Assembly (NCBI GenBank): GCA_002753505.1
Contig: PEAG01000001.1
Span: 124,001 to 188,000 of the forward strand
Length of the DNA stretch: 64,000 nucleotides
From: Magnetococcales bacterium HCHbin5
GTDB lineage: Bacteria > Pseudomonadota > Magnetococcia > Magnetococcales > Magnetaquicoccaceae
Direction: 5' to 3'
Below, piece by piece: positions 3,206 through 63,270 of this stretch (the stretch's first letter is position 1; every line of letters starts with the position of its first letter). The notes under the pieces were generated by a model. It saw only the letters and a list, made by a program, of their open reading frames with translations, ran no database searches and was not told where the DNA came from. The position numbers were made by a program, and so were the translations under genes.

Positions 3206-4204
3206 ATGACAACCTGCACGCAATGCCACAGAACGGTGGCGGATACGGCCTTTTTTTGCCCAAACTGCTCCAGCCCGCTGTTCCGGGATAGTGGACCGGC
3301 TGCCTCTTCGGCCACCGCTTCGACGGCAGCGGTTGTCTCTCCTTGGGGTGTGGCTGCTGCAACGACAGCGTTGCCCGACCGTACCCCGCCAGCGCGCTAT
3401 CCCCGCGCCAAACGTTGCCATGAGGTGGATTATGAGATCATTGGCCATGATACCCAGTTGGTTGAGATAGAGCTGGACCCGGGTGAAACGGTCATTGCAG
3501 AAGCGGGTGCCATGAATTACATGGAAGACGGTATTGTGTTTGCCGCCAAGATGGGGGATGGTTCCACCCCCGATGCAGGCATTTTTTCCAGCCTGTTGGC
3601 GGTGGGACAGCGACTCTTGACGGGTGAATCGCTGTTTGTCACCCATTTCACCAATGAAGGGGTGGGAAAACGGCGGGTCGCATTTGCGGCCCCTTTTCCA
3701 GGCCGCATTATCCCGCTGGATTTGGCAGCCTTGGGTGGAGAGGTTTTGTGTCAAAAGGATGCCTTTCTATGTGCCGCCCTGGGTACCTCTGTTGGTATTG
3801 CCTTTACCCAGCGGTTGGGGGCTGGCTTTTTTGGCGGGGAAGGCTTTATTTTGCAAAAACTGGTTGGCGATGGTTTTGCCTTTCTGCATGCCTGTGGAGC
3901 CATTGTCCAAAAGGAGCTGAGGGGAGAGTTGCTGCGGGTGGATACCGGCTGTCTGGTGGCCATGACCCCCGGCATTGACTATACCATTGAACGAGCCGGG
4001 GGACTCAAATCGATGTTTTTTGGGGGCGAGGGGCTTTTTTTGGCAACATTACAGGGGCATGGTACCGTTTGGTTGCAGAGTCTGCCTTTTTCCCGTTTGG
4101 CAGACCGTATCCTGGCCAACAGTTCCAGCTCACAGGGGGGAGGAGGGGAGAGTCAGGGGGAGTCTTCCCTGCTGGGTAATTTGGGCCGATTTATCGAGAG
4201 GTAA
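3206..4204 (+). CDS. TIGR00266 / AIM24-like protein with N-terminal zinc ribbon
   Basis: 332 residues. The N-terminus has a double CxxC zinc ribbon (CTQC at residues 4-7, CPNC at about 22-25), then an Ala/Thr/Pro linker to about residue 75. The rest matches the TIGR00266/AIM24 beta-barrel family: [33 protein letters not shown], a Gly-rich [12 protein letters not shown] repeated as [12 protein letters not shown], and [17 protein letters not shown]. Family function in bacteria is unknown; the mitochondrial relative AIM24 affects inner-membrane organisation. ATG 3206 is preferred over the frame-open 3164 because GGGGA lies 7 nt upstream and the zinc ribbon begins there. The C-terminus is Ser/Gly-rich. 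Confidence 0.85.
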
Positions 4205-55875: not shown

Positions 55876-57573
55876 TCAGGGTACATAACCAGGAATTTGG
55901 CTCTCATCCACCTCATCTATCTGGGAGGGATCCAGATACTGTTCTGCATAGGTCCGATAAATCTTGCTGCGAATGAAAACGTCGAACAGTTCGTGATCGA
56001 TGTGCTGGTCTTTTTTCATGAATCCCAAAATTTTCAACGAGGCGGAAAGGGACTTGGCCGGTTTATAGGGTCGGTCACTGGCGGTCAGTGCCTCAAACAC
56101 ATCGGCAATGGCCATGATCCGAGCCGGAATGGGCATCTGTTCACGTACCAAACCGTCGGGATAACCTTTACCATTCATGGTTTCGTGGTGACTCGCTGCA
56201 AACTCCGGCACCCGCTTCAAATTTTTCGGGAAGGGGAGGGTGTTGAGCATTTTTTTGGTGGCGGTCACGTGATGATTGATGATGGACCGCTCTTCCGGGG
56301 TAAGAGTACCCTTGGGGATGCAGAGGTTATAGACCTCATTTTCCGTTAAAAACGGCTCCTCCTTCCCATCCGGTCCCCTCCAACGGTACCGGCTGATCTG
56401 CTTGATCCGATCTTGCGACGCTTCCGACATGGATTCCCCCCCCCTGTTGGTTTCGATAATAAATTTTTTATCCGAATCCAGTTGGGCCAATCTTTCGTTG
56501 AAGGCTTGTTCAATCAAGGCCAGTTGCGCTTGTTGTTCCGCCGCCGGGGAGGAGAGAATGGCCACCTTGTTGTTAAGATATTCAATTTCAGCGTCCCGTT
56601 TCAACACTTCAAATCGGGTGGTGACCGTTTTGATGCGGTCATAGATGGTTTCCAATTTGGTTGCCTTGTCCACCACATATTCCGGTGTGACCACCTTGCC
56701 ACAATCGTGCATCCAGGCCGCGATCCGAATTTCATACATCTCGTCTTCAGTGGGGTTAAACCCCTTCAGGTCACCCAAATCCGACTCCTTGGCCGCCTTT
56801 GCCAACATTTCGGCAAGAATCGGCACCCGGTTGCCATGACCACCCGTGTAGGGGGACTTGTCGTCGATGGCGGTCGCAATGGTGCGAATGAACGACTCAA
56901 ACAGCTCTTTCAAATCAGCGATCAGTCGCTGATTGGTCAAAGCGATGGCAGCCTGGGAAGCCAACGATTCAGCCAGTTGCTGATCTTCAGGAGAGAAAGG
57001 CTTGATCTCCCCGCTCTCCTGGTCTAAGGAGTTGATCAACTGCAAAACCCCAATCAGGGTGCTTTCGTGATTTTTAAGGGGCACCGTCAAAAAAGATTTG
57101 GAACGATAGTTCATCGCCTTGTCGAAGGCACGCATACCGGAAAAATCAAAGCCATCTGCTTCGTAAGCATCTGGAATATTGACAGTTTGTCCCTTGATGG
57201 CCGTGTAGGCGGCAACCATTGCCAAGTTGGGTTTGCCATGTCGGTAGAGGGGCAACTCCGGCAGTTTGATGGCTACCCCTGTCGTTCCACCCTGGGCAAT
57301 ATTGAGCGAATCGGTACGAAGAATTTGGAATTTAAGGGTTTCGTGATCTGTCACCGTGTACAGGGTACCCGCATCCGCATGGGTCAACGCCTTGGCACCC
57401 ATCAAAATGGTTTCCAACAGCATGTCCGTGTTGCGCATTGAGGAGAGAGCCACACCAATCTCATTGAGACGATTAACCCGCTCCAGCAAATGGCTGCGCA
57501 GCTTATTGATCGCATCCGGGCTAACAGACTGCTGACCTGAAAGTTGATCAGAAATAGAAGGACTTGTACTCAC
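55876..57573 (-). CDS. GAF/HD-GYP cyclic-di-GMP phosphodiesterase
   Basis: 565 residues from a GTG start with AAGGGGG about 6 nt upstream; the frame is open further upstream but that part lacks conservation. A GAF domain (about 40-200; LTHADAGTLYTVTDHE, KSFLTVPLKNHESTLIGVLQ) precedes an HD-GYP domain from about 230: GGHGNRVPILAEMLAKAA, WMHDCGKVVTPEYVVDKATK and SHHETMNGKGYPDGL, all intact. Between the HD and GYP motifs is an insert of roughly 100 residues, rich in Glu, Gln and Arg, longer than usual. Predicted to degrade c-di-GMP in response to a GAF ligand. It converges with the GAF-GspE gene, whose GAF domain resembles its own. Confidence 0.92.
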   Translation of the reverse strand: MSTSPSISDQLSGQQSVSPDAINKLRSHLLERVNRLNEIGVALSSMRNTDMLLETILMGAKALTHADAGTLYTVTDHETLKFQILRTDSLNIAQGGTTGVAIKLPELPLYRHGKPNLAMVAAYTAIKGQTVNIPDAYEADGFDFSGMRAFDKAMNYRSKSFLTVPLKNHESTLIGVLQLINSLDQESGEIKPFSPEDQQLAESLASQAAIALTNQRLIADLKELFESFIRTIATAIDDKSPYTGGHGNRVPILAEMLAKAAKESDLGDLKGFNPTEDEMYEIRIAAWMHDCGKVVTPEYVVDKATKLETIYDRIKTVTTRFEVLKRDAEIEYLNNKVAILSSPAAEQQAQLALIEQAFNERLAQLDSDKKFIIETNRGGESMSEASQDRIKQISRYRWRGPDGKEEPFLTENEVYNLCIPKGTLTPEERSIINHHVTATKKMLNTLPFPKNLKRVPEFAASHHETMNGKGYPDGLVREQMPIPARIMAIADVFEALTASDRPYKPAKSLSASLKILGFMKKDQHIDHELFDVFIRSKIYRTYAEQYLDPSQIDEVDESQIPGYVP

Positions 57574-57999
57574 GCCGAACCCCCTTGATTTGCAGGATAA
57601 AGTGGCTTGACCCAACCGACCGGACACACAAAATACGACAAATTCGGACAAAACACAACAATACAATCCCCACCCACATCTTTGTCCCTCACCAATAGGA
57701 CAAACAGAGTCCGATCACGGACAGGTTTAGCCCACTGCGCACACGTCAATGGAACATTGATCGCCATCACCTGAACCAAATGAGACAAAACAACCTTGTG
57801 CACAGGAAACAGGGTAGGGTACAAAGGAATATCCCAATTGCCAACTGTACATTGTGACCATCCACCACCGGTCGGTAGATGCTATCACACAATCAGGAGG
57901 ATTACCATATTCAATTGCTTTATAAGTTTTTTTGACGAAGGTCTGTGGGGACCTGCAAACCGTAGCATGGCAACTGTTTTTCGAGGTGAAATCAACTTA
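57574..57999. other. Divergent intergenic region with repeated GGACAAA heptamers
   Basis: 426 bp between the HD-GYP gene and trkA, with no supported gene. The heptamer GGACAAA occurs at 57646-57652 and 57698-57704 and in inverse form TTTGTCC at 57681-57687. The last two form a 7-bp inverted repeat with a 10-nt spacer. An AT-rich stretch near 57915-57931 (CAATTGCTTTATAAG) may hold the trkA promoter. Likely promoters for both flanking genes. Confidence 0.4.
57646..57704. repeat. GGACAAA/TTTGTCC heptamer array (possible operator)
   Basis: Three copies of one heptamer: two direct (57646, 57698) and one inverted (57681). The copies at 57681-57687 and 57698-57704 give dyad symmetry with centre-to-centre distance 17 bp, close to two helical turns, a pattern used by dimeric regulators. 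The regulator is unknown. Confidence 0.35.
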
Positions 58000-59406: not shown

Positions 59407-60912
59407 ATGAATCTGATTCTTAATCTGCGCATTGTTGGGGTTGTGGCGGCCATGCTGGCCATCTTCCAGGTGCCCACCCTGGCCCTGGCCTGGCACTTTG
59501 ACGAAGAGATCATCCCCTTTGTACTCACGTTGCTCACCACCATCATCATCATCCTGATGGCCATGTTGACCCGACGTACCCTGTTTCTCGGCATGCAAGC
59601 CAGGGATGGGGTCGTTGCCGTGATCATGGGCTGGGTGATGATGATCCTGCTGGGGGCATTGCCCTACTATTTTTCGGGTATCATGTCTGGGGTGGATGCC
59701 ATATTTGAGTCTGCATCCGGTTTTACCACCACCGGTTCCACCATCCTGGCAGACATAGAGCGTCTGCCCCAGGGGTTGCTCTTTTGGCGCAGCACCACCC
59801 AGTGGATCGGTGGCATGGGTATTTTGCTGTTGGCTGTAGCCATTATGCCCTATCTTGGGATAGGAGGGGCACAGATCATGAAGGCGGAAATGCCTGGATT
59901 TAAAAAAGATCGAATCGCTCCCCGGGTGACGGATACTGCCCGTATTCTCTGGAGCATCTATCTCGGTTTGACTCTGCTCGCCGGCATCTGTTATTGGCTG
60001 GCTGGCATGCCTGTTTTGGATGCTGTCCATCACGCTTTCACGACTATTTCCATAGGCGGTTTTTCCCCAAAAAATGCCAGCATGGGAGCATACCCCCCAG
60101 CGGTGCAATGGTGTTCCATGCTGTTCATGATCCTGGCGGGGATCAATTTTGTGCTTTATTACCGGTTGCTTTTTAAACGGGAGTGGGGGCCCCTTGGGGA
60201 TGAAGAGTTGCACTGGTATCTATTGACAATCCTGGGGGTGGCCGCCTTTTGTTGTCTGGAGGCCTTTGCCTCCACGGCATCCAATGATCTACACGATGCA
60301 CTGCTGCACGGTCTGTTTCAGGCGGTCAGCCTGGTCACCAACACCGGATATGCCAATGTGGATTGGGAGAGCTGGCCTCTCTATGTACAGATTATCCTGA
60401 TGACAATCGCAATACCTGGTGCCATGTCCGGCTCTACCACCGGTGGGATCAAAATGGTGCGGGCCATCGTGCTGTTCAAGGTGTTGGGAGCCGTGATCAA
60501 CCGCATACTTACCCCGGAGCGGGTGATAGCGGTCAAAATTAACGGCAAACGCATTCCCTCGGATCTGCTGGATGCCGTGATGGCTCTGGGCTTTGCCATC
60601 ACCTTGGCCATGGCGGTCGCTACCATTACCCTGGTGGCCATGGGGCTTGACCTGCAAACCGCTTATTCTGCCGCCCTGACAACGCTGATCAACGTGGGGC
60701 CGGGCATAGGGATGGTTGGCCCCATGGACAACTTTGGTGCCATACCAGACAATGGCAAGTTAATGCTGGTGTTTTTGATGCTGACCGGGCGTTTGGAAGT
60801 GTTTACCGTTCTTATTCTTTTCGTCCCGCATTTTTGGAAACCCGACGCCATCCTCACCACCAACCCCAGCGTGGAAACCAGTCTGCGCATTTCCAAACGG
60901 AAAATGGAATAG
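59407..60912 (+). CDS. trkH: TrkH: potassium-translocating membrane subunit
   Basis: 501 residues with ten or more membrane segments, standard for TrkH/KtrB-type K+ transporters. Pore-loop signatures are seen: SASGFTTTGSTILADIE, FTTISIGGFSPKNASMG, SLVTNTGYANVD and SGSTTGGIKMVRAIVLFKV. It takes up K+ together with TrkA, encoded 18 nt upstream; GAGG precedes ATG 59407. Downstream is a 312-bp gap containing the inverted dif-like sites rather than another gene. Length and motifs are complete. Confidence 0.96.
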   Translation: MNLILNLRIVGVVAAMLAIFQVPTLALAWHFDEEIIPFVLTLLTTIIIILMAMLTRRTLFLGMQARDGVVAVIMGWVMMILLGALPYYFSGIMSGVDAIFESASGFTTTGSTILADIERLPQGLLFWRSTTQWIGGMGILLLAVAIMPYLGIGGAQIMKAEMPGFKKDRIAPRVTDTARILWSIYLGLTLLAGICYWLAGMPVLDAVHHAFTTISIGGFSPKNASMGAYPPAVQWCSMLFMILAGINFVLYYRLLFKREWGPLGDEELHWYLLTILGVAAFCCLEAFASTASNDLHDALLHGLFQAVSLVTNTGYANVDWESWPLYVQIILMTIAIPGAMSGSTTGGIKMVRAIVLFKVLGAVINRILTPERVIAVKINGKRIPSDLLDAVMALGFAITLAMAVATITLVAMGLDLQTAYSAALTTLINVGPGIGMVGPMDNFGAIPDNGKLMLVFLMLTGRLEVFTVLILFVPHFWKPDAILTTNPSVETSLRISKRKME

Positions 60913-61014: not shown

Positions 61015-61042
61015 ATTTAACATAATACATCTTATACGACAG
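61015..61042 (-). other. dif: dif-like XerCD recombination site, copy 1 (inverted)
   Basis: Read on the minus strand, this 28-mer has XerC-type half CTGTCGTATAA, 6-nt centre GATGTA and XerD-type half TTATGTTAAAT. The XerD half is identical to that of E. coli dif. It is the inverted partner of 61085-61112; 27 of 28 bases match that copy. Confidence 0.7.
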
Positions 61043-61084
61043 GATTTCAGGCAGGATTCGGGGGTGGTGATGGCAGGCTAGAGT

Positions 61085-61112
61085 TTGTCGTATAAGATGT
61101 ATTATGTTAAAT
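61085..61112 (+). other. dif: dif-like XerCD recombination site, copy 2
   Basis: On the plus strand the 28-mer has halves TTGTCGTATAA and TTATGTTAAAT around centre GATGTA. This is the 11-6-11 layout of dif, where XerC and XerD resolve chromosome dimers with FtsK. The XerD half matches E. coli dif at 11 of 11 positions; the XerC half at 6 of 11, as is usual between species. Confidence 0.75.
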
Positions 61113-61224
61113 TGCTACTGCCGTCCACCTGGAAACTTGCCGGATGGCCTTTTGCCGCATAGAATCCCCCCCAGGATAGCTGCCAAGCTTAATCACCATC
61201 AGGACCATTTCAGGGAAACATCTT

Positions 61225-63270
61225 ATGACGCGCCGCATCTTGGTTACCAGTGCCCTCCCCTATGCCAACGGTTCCATCCATCTCGGCCATCTGGTCGAAT
61301 ATATTCAAACAGACATCTGGGTACGGTTTCAAAAGTTGCGGGGCAACGACTGCCTCTATTTCTGTGCAGACGACACCCATGGAACGCCGGTCATGATCCG
61401 GGCCCGCAACGAAGGCATCGCGCCGGAGTTGTTGGTGCAACGGATGCACGAGGAGCATCAGGCGGATTTTAAAGCGTTTTCCATTGGTTTCGACAACTAT
61501 TACAGCACCCATTCGGAAGAAAATCGTATCCTTTCCGAAGAGATATACTGCAAAAACCGCGATGCCGGACATGTTCAGACCGCACTGGTGCGTCAAGCCT
61601 ATTGCAACAAGGATGCGATGTTTTTGCCGGACCGCTTTATTCGGGGTACCTGCCCCAGTTGTGGAGCCTTGGACCAGTACGGAGATGCCTGCGAAAGCTG
61701 TTCCGCCACCTACGCGCCTCTGGACCTGAAACAGGCCAAATGTGCCCTCTGTGGTGAGCCGCCGGTTGAAAAATCCTCCGAACACCTGTTTTTCCGGTTG
61801 TCCGATTTCGAACCGTTTTTGAAAGAGTGGACCCGTTCCGGTGCCTTGCAGGCGGAGATGGCCAATAAACTGGATGAATGGTTTGAAAGTGGCCTGAAAA
61901 ATTGGGACATCTCCCGGGATGCCCCCTACTTCGGTTTTGAAATTCCGGATGCAGCGGGCAAATATTTTTATGTCTGGCTTGATGCACCGGTGGGTTATAT
62001 GGCCTCCACCTGGAACTATTGCAAACGAACGGGCCGGTCGTTTGATGCCTATTGGCGTCCAGGGAGTACGGCAGAGGTTTATCATTTTATTGGCAAGGAT
62101 ATTCTCTATTTCCATACCCTGTTCTGGCCTGCCATGCTGCAGGGAGGTGGGTTTCGCACCCCGACGGCGGTTTTTGCCCATGGATTTTTGACCGTCAATG
62201 GCCAGAAAATGTCCAAATCGCGTGGAACATTTATCAATGCCCGCCACTATCTGGACCATTTGGATCCCGAATATTTACGTTACTATTATGCCTGCAAACT
62301 CTCGGGGCGGGTGGATGATCTGGATCTCAACCTGGACGATTTTGTGTTGCGGGTCAATGCGGATATGGTGGGCAAGGTGGTCAACCTGGCGTCCCGGACG
62401 GCGGGGTTTATCCACAAGCAGTTCCAGGGTCAGCTCTGCCCAGATTATCCCGCAGACGGGGGGCTGTATCAGAGCTTTGTTCAGGCCGGAGAAGAGATTG
62501 CTGCCTGGTATGAAGCGCGGGAGTATGCCAAGGCCATGCGTGCCATCATGGCCTTGGCCGACACAGCCAACCGTTATATCGAAGAAAACGCCCCCTGGAG
62601 TCTGGCCAAACAGCAAAAAGAGGCGGAGTTGCATGCTGTCTGTTCTGTTGCCATCAACCTGTTTCGGGTGCTGTTGACCTATCTGGCCCCGGTGCTGCCG
62701 GTCATGGCGGAACGGACCCGGGATCTGTTAAATCTGCCCGCTCTGACATGGGAGGGGTGCCGTCTCCCCCTGTGTGGCACGACGATCAAGCCTTTCAAGC
62801 ATTTGATGGCCCGTGTGGACCCCAAGCAGGTCGAGGCACTGTTGGCGGCTGCGCGTCCCCAGGAGCTTCCCCCGCAGAGCGGAGAGCCGGTATCGCCCCC
62901 TCCCCTCCCCTCCTCCCCACCTGCTCTTGCCACCATCCCGCTGGAGAGTTTCGCCCAGGTGGACTTGCGGGTGGCACGCATTGTTCAGGCCGAGCTGGTT
63001 GCCGGGGCGGATAAATTGTTAAAATTAAACCTGGATCTGGGTCCACTGGGCCCGCGCACCGTCTTTGCCGGCATTCGGGCCGCCTACAGCCCGGAATCGC
63101 TGACCAACCGATTGACGGTCGTGGTGGCCAACCTGTTGCCCCGCAAAATGAAGTTTGGTCTTTCGGAGGGGATGATTCTGGCCGCCAGCAGGGAGGACAA
63201 CACCGATAAAACAGCACTCTTCCTTTTGTCCCCCGATGCCGGGGCCGAACCCGGAATGAAAATTGGCTGA
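61225..63270 (+). CDS. metG: MetG: methionyl-tRNA synthetase
   Basis: 681 residues, the long dimeric form. It charges tRNA-Met. The class-I HIGH motif is IHLGHLVEY, with start [20 protein letters not shown]; the KMSKS loop reads [12 protein letters not shown]. The zinc knuckle is complete ([17 protein letters not shown], then CALCGEPP). The C-terminal tRNA-binding (EMAP/OB) domain follows a Pro-rich linker at about 545-575: [37 protein letters not shown] and [23 protein letters not shown] 61225 lies in ACATCTT-ATG without a strong purine ribosome site, but conservation begins at residue 2. It ends 3 nt from the convergent OmpA-like gene. Confidence 0.97.

Follow-up and report, generated by a model that had tools for sequence, protein, structure and literature searches.

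The window, the 64,000-nucleotide stretch of DNA analyzed here, carries what its sequence indicates is the chromosomal dif of a Magnetococcales genome, and this dif consists of two sites in inverted orientation and not of one. The locus is a variant of the XerCD-type dif, as one of the usual features, singleness, fails. The pair sits at the replication terminus, at the switch in GC skew and in the orientation of the KOPS motifs. We see roughly an even chance that it works as a composite dif, in which two XerCD complexes would act together in cis at the locus of chromosome dimer resolution.

Two inverted dif-type sites between trkH and metG

The inverted repeat consists of positions 61015-61041 and 61086-61112, 27 nt that are 100% complementary, as a reading made earlier from the sequence only had described. 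Its halves belong to two dif-type sites with the 11-6-11 layout and the conserved XerD arm: site A (61015..61042, minus strand; XerC arm CTGTCGTATAA, center GATGTA, XerD arm TTATGTTAAAT) and site B (61085..61112, plus strand; XerC arm TTGTCGTATAA, center GATGTA, and the same XerD arm). They are separated by a spacer of 42 bp (61043..61084, no strand), which gives a start-to-start distance of 70 bp. Searching the window with the dif consensus at up to 3 mismatches returned 2 matches, sites A and B, where shuffled sequences are expected to give 0.00; the assignment of both sites to the dif type was thus borne out.

The XerC arms face inward and the XerD arms outward, that of site A toward trkH (59407..60912, plus strand) and that of site B toward the methionyl-tRNA synthetase gene metG (61225..63270, plus strand). 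In the window genome, trkH sits between dif and its ancestral neighbor, a GAF-HD (HD_5) signalling gene (55876..57666, minus strand) that was typed through its orthologues and is separated from dif by trkA-trkH. In relatives, the XerD arm of site A points toward the GAF-HD gene. On the other side, a conserved stretch at 61124..61170 (plus strand), 24 bp from the XerD arm of site B, shows 86-93% identity in three congeners and is probably the metG promoter, judging by its motifs (TTGCCG - 17 bp - TAGAAT). An Rfam search of the paired region gave no match near the gathering score, the weak ones being hairpin look-alikes. An assembly artifact was rejected as the origin of the pair, as independent assemblies of related species also carry it.

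The pair as the chromosomal dif

The source genome comprises 4.19 Mb in 200 contigs and is 99.45% complete. The XerD arm TTATGTTAAAT has two occurrences in the whole genome, both in the pair, and the next-best dif candidate shows 3 mismatches to the consensus; no better single dif lies elsewhere. The pair is confined to a single locus, without scattered copies, and a mobile dispersed repeat of the MITE type was rejected on this ground. Encoded in the genome are XerD (355.9 bits, above the curated cut-off of 329.6), an XerC-like recombinase whose best family is XerC (TIGR02224; 315.5 bits, under the cut-off of 335.15), and an FtsK with the gamma domain.

GC skew was computed on the contig of the pair alone (216 kb, with the pair at 185 kb). 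The cumulative skew rises to ~4450 at the pair and declines past ~200 kb. On the same contig, the KOPS motif GGGNAGGG is present in 39 forward and 11 reverse copies before the pair and in 1 forward and 5 reverse copies after it, the latter a thin sample, with only 31 kb beyond the pair. In a genome of the order assembled as one contig (4,719,581 bp), which we take to be that of the cultured strain Magnetococcus marinus MC-1, a single dif is found at 2.304 Mb, with forward to reverse KOPS counts of 23:4 before it and 2:26 after it. Our assignment of the pair as the chromosomal dif thus follows from its being the genome's only good dif matches, from the encoded XerD, XerC-like and FtsK-gamma proteins, and from its location at the turnover of skew and KOPS. 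A better single dif at the skew minimum and scattered copies had been named by the sequence-only reading as grounds for refuting it, and on both counts the outcome favored that reading.

Near the terminus, past the right end of the window (~208000-216000 of the contig), lies an array of more than 100 copies of a 48-bp repeat (CAGTTGGATGG...), which is probably a very long gene for a repetitive protein with a 16-residue unit.

Distribution and synteny in the Magnetococcales

We searched 48 genomes of the order and examined the surroundings of ~40 sites. Wherever a contig carries both genes, dif lies between the GAF-HD gene and metG, with or without a partner, and metG is its constant neighbor across the order. 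Most families, and MC-1, have one site, and its XerD arm points toward metG; the exception is family f11 (MC-1 and G038), in which the XerD arm of the single site faces the other gene, away from metG. This comparison of sister genomes, which the sequence-only reading had proposed, revealed no inserted phage at the syntenic locus.

The inverted pair was found in 18 genomes, which represent three whole clades and one single-genome family. The window genus, g1, has it in each of its six testable members (G000, the source genome, and G002, G003, G004, G005 and G006), and it also occurs in family f2 and in the genomes with a typed locus of families f8 (4/4) and f13 (7/7). In G004 the pair spans a contig break (distance 60), and the contig of G001 ends at the same point. 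All full-length partners are inverted and lie on the XerC side of dif. A tree of the MetG and GAF-HD proteins, in which G001 and one half of G004 were scored as single owing to these contig breaks, requires four changes between single site and pair, and gains or losses of the pair have therefore occurred. Within g1, f8, and f13, every scorable species keeps the pair. The opposite arrangement (inward pairs with the XerD arms inside; short-spacer pattern) was found in 0/398 genomes, and the exact pair pattern in 0/350 sampled Pseudomonadota outside the Magnetococcales. The pair is dispensable for dimer resolution as such, since many families of the order, presumably that of MC-1 among them, manage with a single site.

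Other configurations were also seen in the order. In families f4, f5, and f14 (L061, L062, L073, and L247), bare XerD half-sites (TTATGTTAAAT or TTATGTCAAAT) without an XerC arm are located 38-118 bp from the single dif, in either orientation. Genome G022 carries two full single dif sites on different contigs (L063 on G022:C88 and L064 on G022:C303), with the centers TTAACA and GATATA, and just one of them adjoins metG; the extra dif could belong to a second replicon or to an Xer-dependent element, or could stem from contamination.

Selection on both sites

Within g1 and f13, the XerD arms share a pairwise identity of 0.95-1.0 and the XerC arms one of 0.74-0.88, at both sites, whereas the adjoining 30 bp of spacer and of outer flank are at a random level of 0.22-0.30. 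Judged from these alignments, the neighborhood is shown to be saturated and both sites to be maintained by selection over deep divergence. Selection was one of two explanations first offered for the likeness of the arms; the other, a recent origin, does not hold, as the pair was retained across three clades with saturated spacers. That both sites are conserved amid saturated flanks is strong evidence that the pair is neither a recent duplication nor a scar in decay. As whole lineages retained both sites while the surrounding DNA was scrambled, the second copy probably has some function.

Spacer length and helical phasing

The sequence of the spacer (61043-61084) is unconserved, and its length is in register with a helical series of ~10 bp. 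The start-to-start distances are 70, 69, 60, 60, 58, and 59 in g1, 60 in f2, 80 and 108 in f8, and 78, 58, 89, 68, and 59 in f13; the 108 of f8 (three near relatives) and the 59 of f13 (three values) were each counted once. These about 14 distances, which are partly related, cluster at 59 + 10n with a resultant of 0.87 at a period of 9.9 bp. When each distance was jittered by up to 5 bp, 1/20,000 trials reached 0.87 (p = 5e-5), and counting the inferred evolutionary steps alone gave p = 0.005. The f8 distance of 108 fits the 9.9-bp period and not one of 10.5 bp. We regard the ~10-bp helical phasing of the sites as strong but not settled, because the set is small and partly related. A spacer that is free in sequence but constrained in length is the usual mark of two bound proteins touching on one face of the helix.

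Centers and probable exchange between partner sites

The two centers of a pair are identical in g1, f2, and G046 (GATGTA or GATATA). In f8, and in f13 except for G046, the second center is NNNRCG, versus ..TA in the first. Strand exchange requires matching bases beside the cleaved arm, as stated for V. cholerae (PMC4246890), and the two sites of such a pair should therefore not recombine with each other. The f13 site with the ..TA center is oriented toward metG in three species and toward the GAF-HD gene in three; together with the turned single site of f11, this suggests that exchange between partner sites probably happened during evolution. Among close species, a spacer motif and an XerC-arm marker hold one orientation (in G003/G004/G006 and in G044/G047), so that frequent inversion is not supported. 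In G046 (L080, ~3906-4022), the inverted repeat does not stop at the dif sites but runs ~15 bp further on either side (GGTCTCGTCTCTGGA / TCCAGAGACGAGACC). It looks as though one half was copied over the opposite one, and such copying may be why both centers of this genome are identical.

Pairs outside the Magnetococcales

A scan of genome contigs for outward-facing pairs returned at least 118 loci. Among the matches listed are at least 16 Pontibacter genomes plus Botryobacter (distance 59-62 bp, second center mostly TATACT), at least 3 Chlorobiaceae, Gemmataceae and other planctomycetes, and single genomes each of Desulfarculales, Sedimenticola, a Methylophagaceae-type bacterium, and Victivallaceae. 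The distance of 73 in the Gemmataceae pairs is off the 59 + 10n series. No such sites beyond the pair occur in the genomes of P. anaerobius, one Chlorobiaceae, two Gemmataceae, Sedimenticola, and the Methylophagaceae-type bacterium. Over a 400-kb stretch of Pontibacter cellulosilyticus, the cumulative skew peaks 3 kb away from the pair.

Some matches to the pair pattern were set aside. A viral contig with a perfect pair (L206) is probably an assembly artifact, because the contig is mirrored and its ORFs repeat in reverse. The Flavobacteriaceae matches correspond to a separate multicopy palindromic element of ~105 bp and were excluded from the dif count. These imperfect palindromes with dif-looking arms (TTATAACTGCTATTATGTAAAAT; L088, L131, L137, L139, L150, and L158) often come in twos, oppositely oriented and separated by 450-600 bp, with mosaic DNA between them. 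They have the look of mobile or cassette-like elements that form one family related to Xer or integrases. In Crocinitomicaceae, other Flavobacteriales, and Taibaiella (L093, L098, L138, L141, L142, L151, L183, and L196), an inverted site stands opposite dif. Its conserved arm is CGCAGACATAA, or TGCAGACATAA in some, and the spacer in most cases ends in AACG...CGTT; going by these motifs, this arrangement is a different, more degenerate paired dif.

A proposed composite dif and the alternatives

In the proposed composite dif, XerC and XerD would load onto both sites, and the two XerCD complexes, on the same face of the helix, would build one joint nucleoprotein structure. The gamma domain of FtsK acts through XerD (PMC5052618). 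With one XerD arm turned toward each replichore, FtsK would reach an XerD half-site first whichever side it came from, and the locus would be symmetric for FtsK. This argument from the side of FtsK reportedly has its basis in E. coli work by Massey and colleagues in 2004. To resolve a dimer, a site would recombine with the same site on the sister chromosome. A working model must limit firing to one site, since recombination at both would cancel resolution; one site would have to be silent, or blocked once the other fires. In f8 and f13, the differing centers would prevent recombination between the sites, so that the second would be an accessory site or an alternative place of docking, and we infer an accessory, non-recombining second site to be the simplest version for these families. 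A broader proposal, to which we give tentative and lesser credence, is a two-headed dif, in which phased, opposed Xer sites would jointly form a dimer resolution machine that responds equally to FtsK from both replichores and has separate origins in Magnetococcales, Pontibacter, Chlorobiaceae, Planctomycetes, and others.

The alternative that survives best, while still unlikely, is that of two independent dif sites without contact in cis, a duplication being kept for redundancy or for higher XerCD occupancy and the distance pattern arising from coincidence or steric packing. Both sites look fully functional in their sequence, and the centers are identical in the window genus, f2, and G046, as this account would have it. 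However, redundancy predicts that one copy would be lost across such divergence, and neither the helical steps, nor the constant outward orientation, nor the recurrent NNNRCG center of f8 and f13 would be predicted.

It is improbable that the pair is a folded single-strand or cruciform substrate whose hairpin stem serves as a double-stranded dif, in the fashion of a CTX-type attP, as the sequence-only reading had considered. The single-stranded fold of the paired segment reaches a z-score of -5.6 against shuffles, the stem in the window is a perfect 27 bp with its center paired, and the contigs of two congeners end inside the pair. Such a score is nevertheless what any 27-bp inverted repeat would yield. 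What disfavors the hairpin is the failure of complementarity elsewhere: the stem is broken at the center in f8 and f13, the sole families with an unpaired center, and in most species it is also broken at the outer XerC bases, where compensatory changes are not obvious. Nor would a hairpin lead one to expect helical phasing.

Less probable again is a decoy or guard against mobile elements that use Xer, by which the second site would titrate their attP or steer insertions to a harmless spot beside dif. Although such elements are known to target dif and the NNNRCG center of f8 and f13 would accept different partners, no integrated element was seen at any pair, phage or plasmid records hold no matching sites, and the phasing is left unexplained.

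We have similarly little faith in an invertible switch, in which Xer recombination would flip the 42-bp spacer beside the metG promoter. A duplicated chromosomal dif able to invert its spacer had been envisaged at the outset; the pair is indeed the only dif of its genome, and its identical centers and inverted orientation make inversion possible in the window genus. The variable orientation of the ..TA site in f13 and the flipped site of f11 would also fit. The inverting part of this claim fares poorly, as spacer and arm orientation are conserved among the comparable species cited above, the f8 and f13 centers forbid inversion, and the spacer holds no gene.

Least of all do we credit the idea that the pair was left by, or is targeted by, a filamentous phage of the CTX type or another element that depends on Xer. 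This early suggestion recalls the two inverted dif-like sites, 90 bp apart, of the CTX attP. Against it, dif has the same flanking genes throughout the order whether or not a pair is present, no phage genes were found among its typed neighbors, phage and plasmid collections gave no match to the pair, viral contigs gave none to the exact Magnetococcales site, and the arms are conserved under selection.

Relation to known systems

The chromosomal dif is taught as one site per chromosome. A second site that is inverted, phased, and selectively kept would mean that some lineages resolve dimers on a composite locus. Two questions thereby become directly testable: how an asymmetric XerCD-dif complex deals with FtsK coming from both sides, and what makes recombination fire just once. 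The natural series of spacer lengths and differing centers offers a ready-made set of mutants. Predictors of a single dif that use the best score would miss the partner site. The published surveys of dif work on a one-site-per-chromosome basis (PMC2731167, PMC3025954), and no description of two, inverted, or paired chromosomal dif sites was found in the open-licence literature.

The Magnetococcales pair shares with the chromosomal dif of the XerCD/FtsK system (Carnoy & Roten 2009, PMC2731167; Kono et al. 2011, PMC3025954) the 28-bp 11-6-11 layout, the conserved XerD arm, the low GC content, the intergenic position at the skew and KOPS switch, and the presence of XerC, XerD, and FtsK-gamma in the genome. 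A Magnetococcus sp. was previously listed with a dif homologue in that work (PMC2731167; PMC3025954). The difference is that there are two inverted sites ~59 + 10n bp apart, with a distinct second center in two families. The attP of the CTX phage (attP1/attP2; PMC4246890) similarly joins two inverted dif-like sites with a short spacer and partly incompatible centers, but it is folded single-stranded phage DNA with a 90-bp spacer, whereas the Magnetococcales sites are chromosomal, vertically inherited, not always complementary, and outside any phage or prophage. The pdif modules of Acinetobacter plasmids (PMC6449649, PMC13141974) likewise place several dif-like sites, recognized by the host XerC and XerD, on one replicon; they bound mobile plasmid gene modules, while the pair encloses no gene and is, by our assignment, the chromosomal dif. 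Finally, in the cer-type resolution sites of plasmids (PMC5357621), an Xer core site is also aided in cis by a neighboring bound protein, but the accessory factors of cer are ArgR and PepA, whereas the neighbor in the Magnetococcales is a second Xer site.
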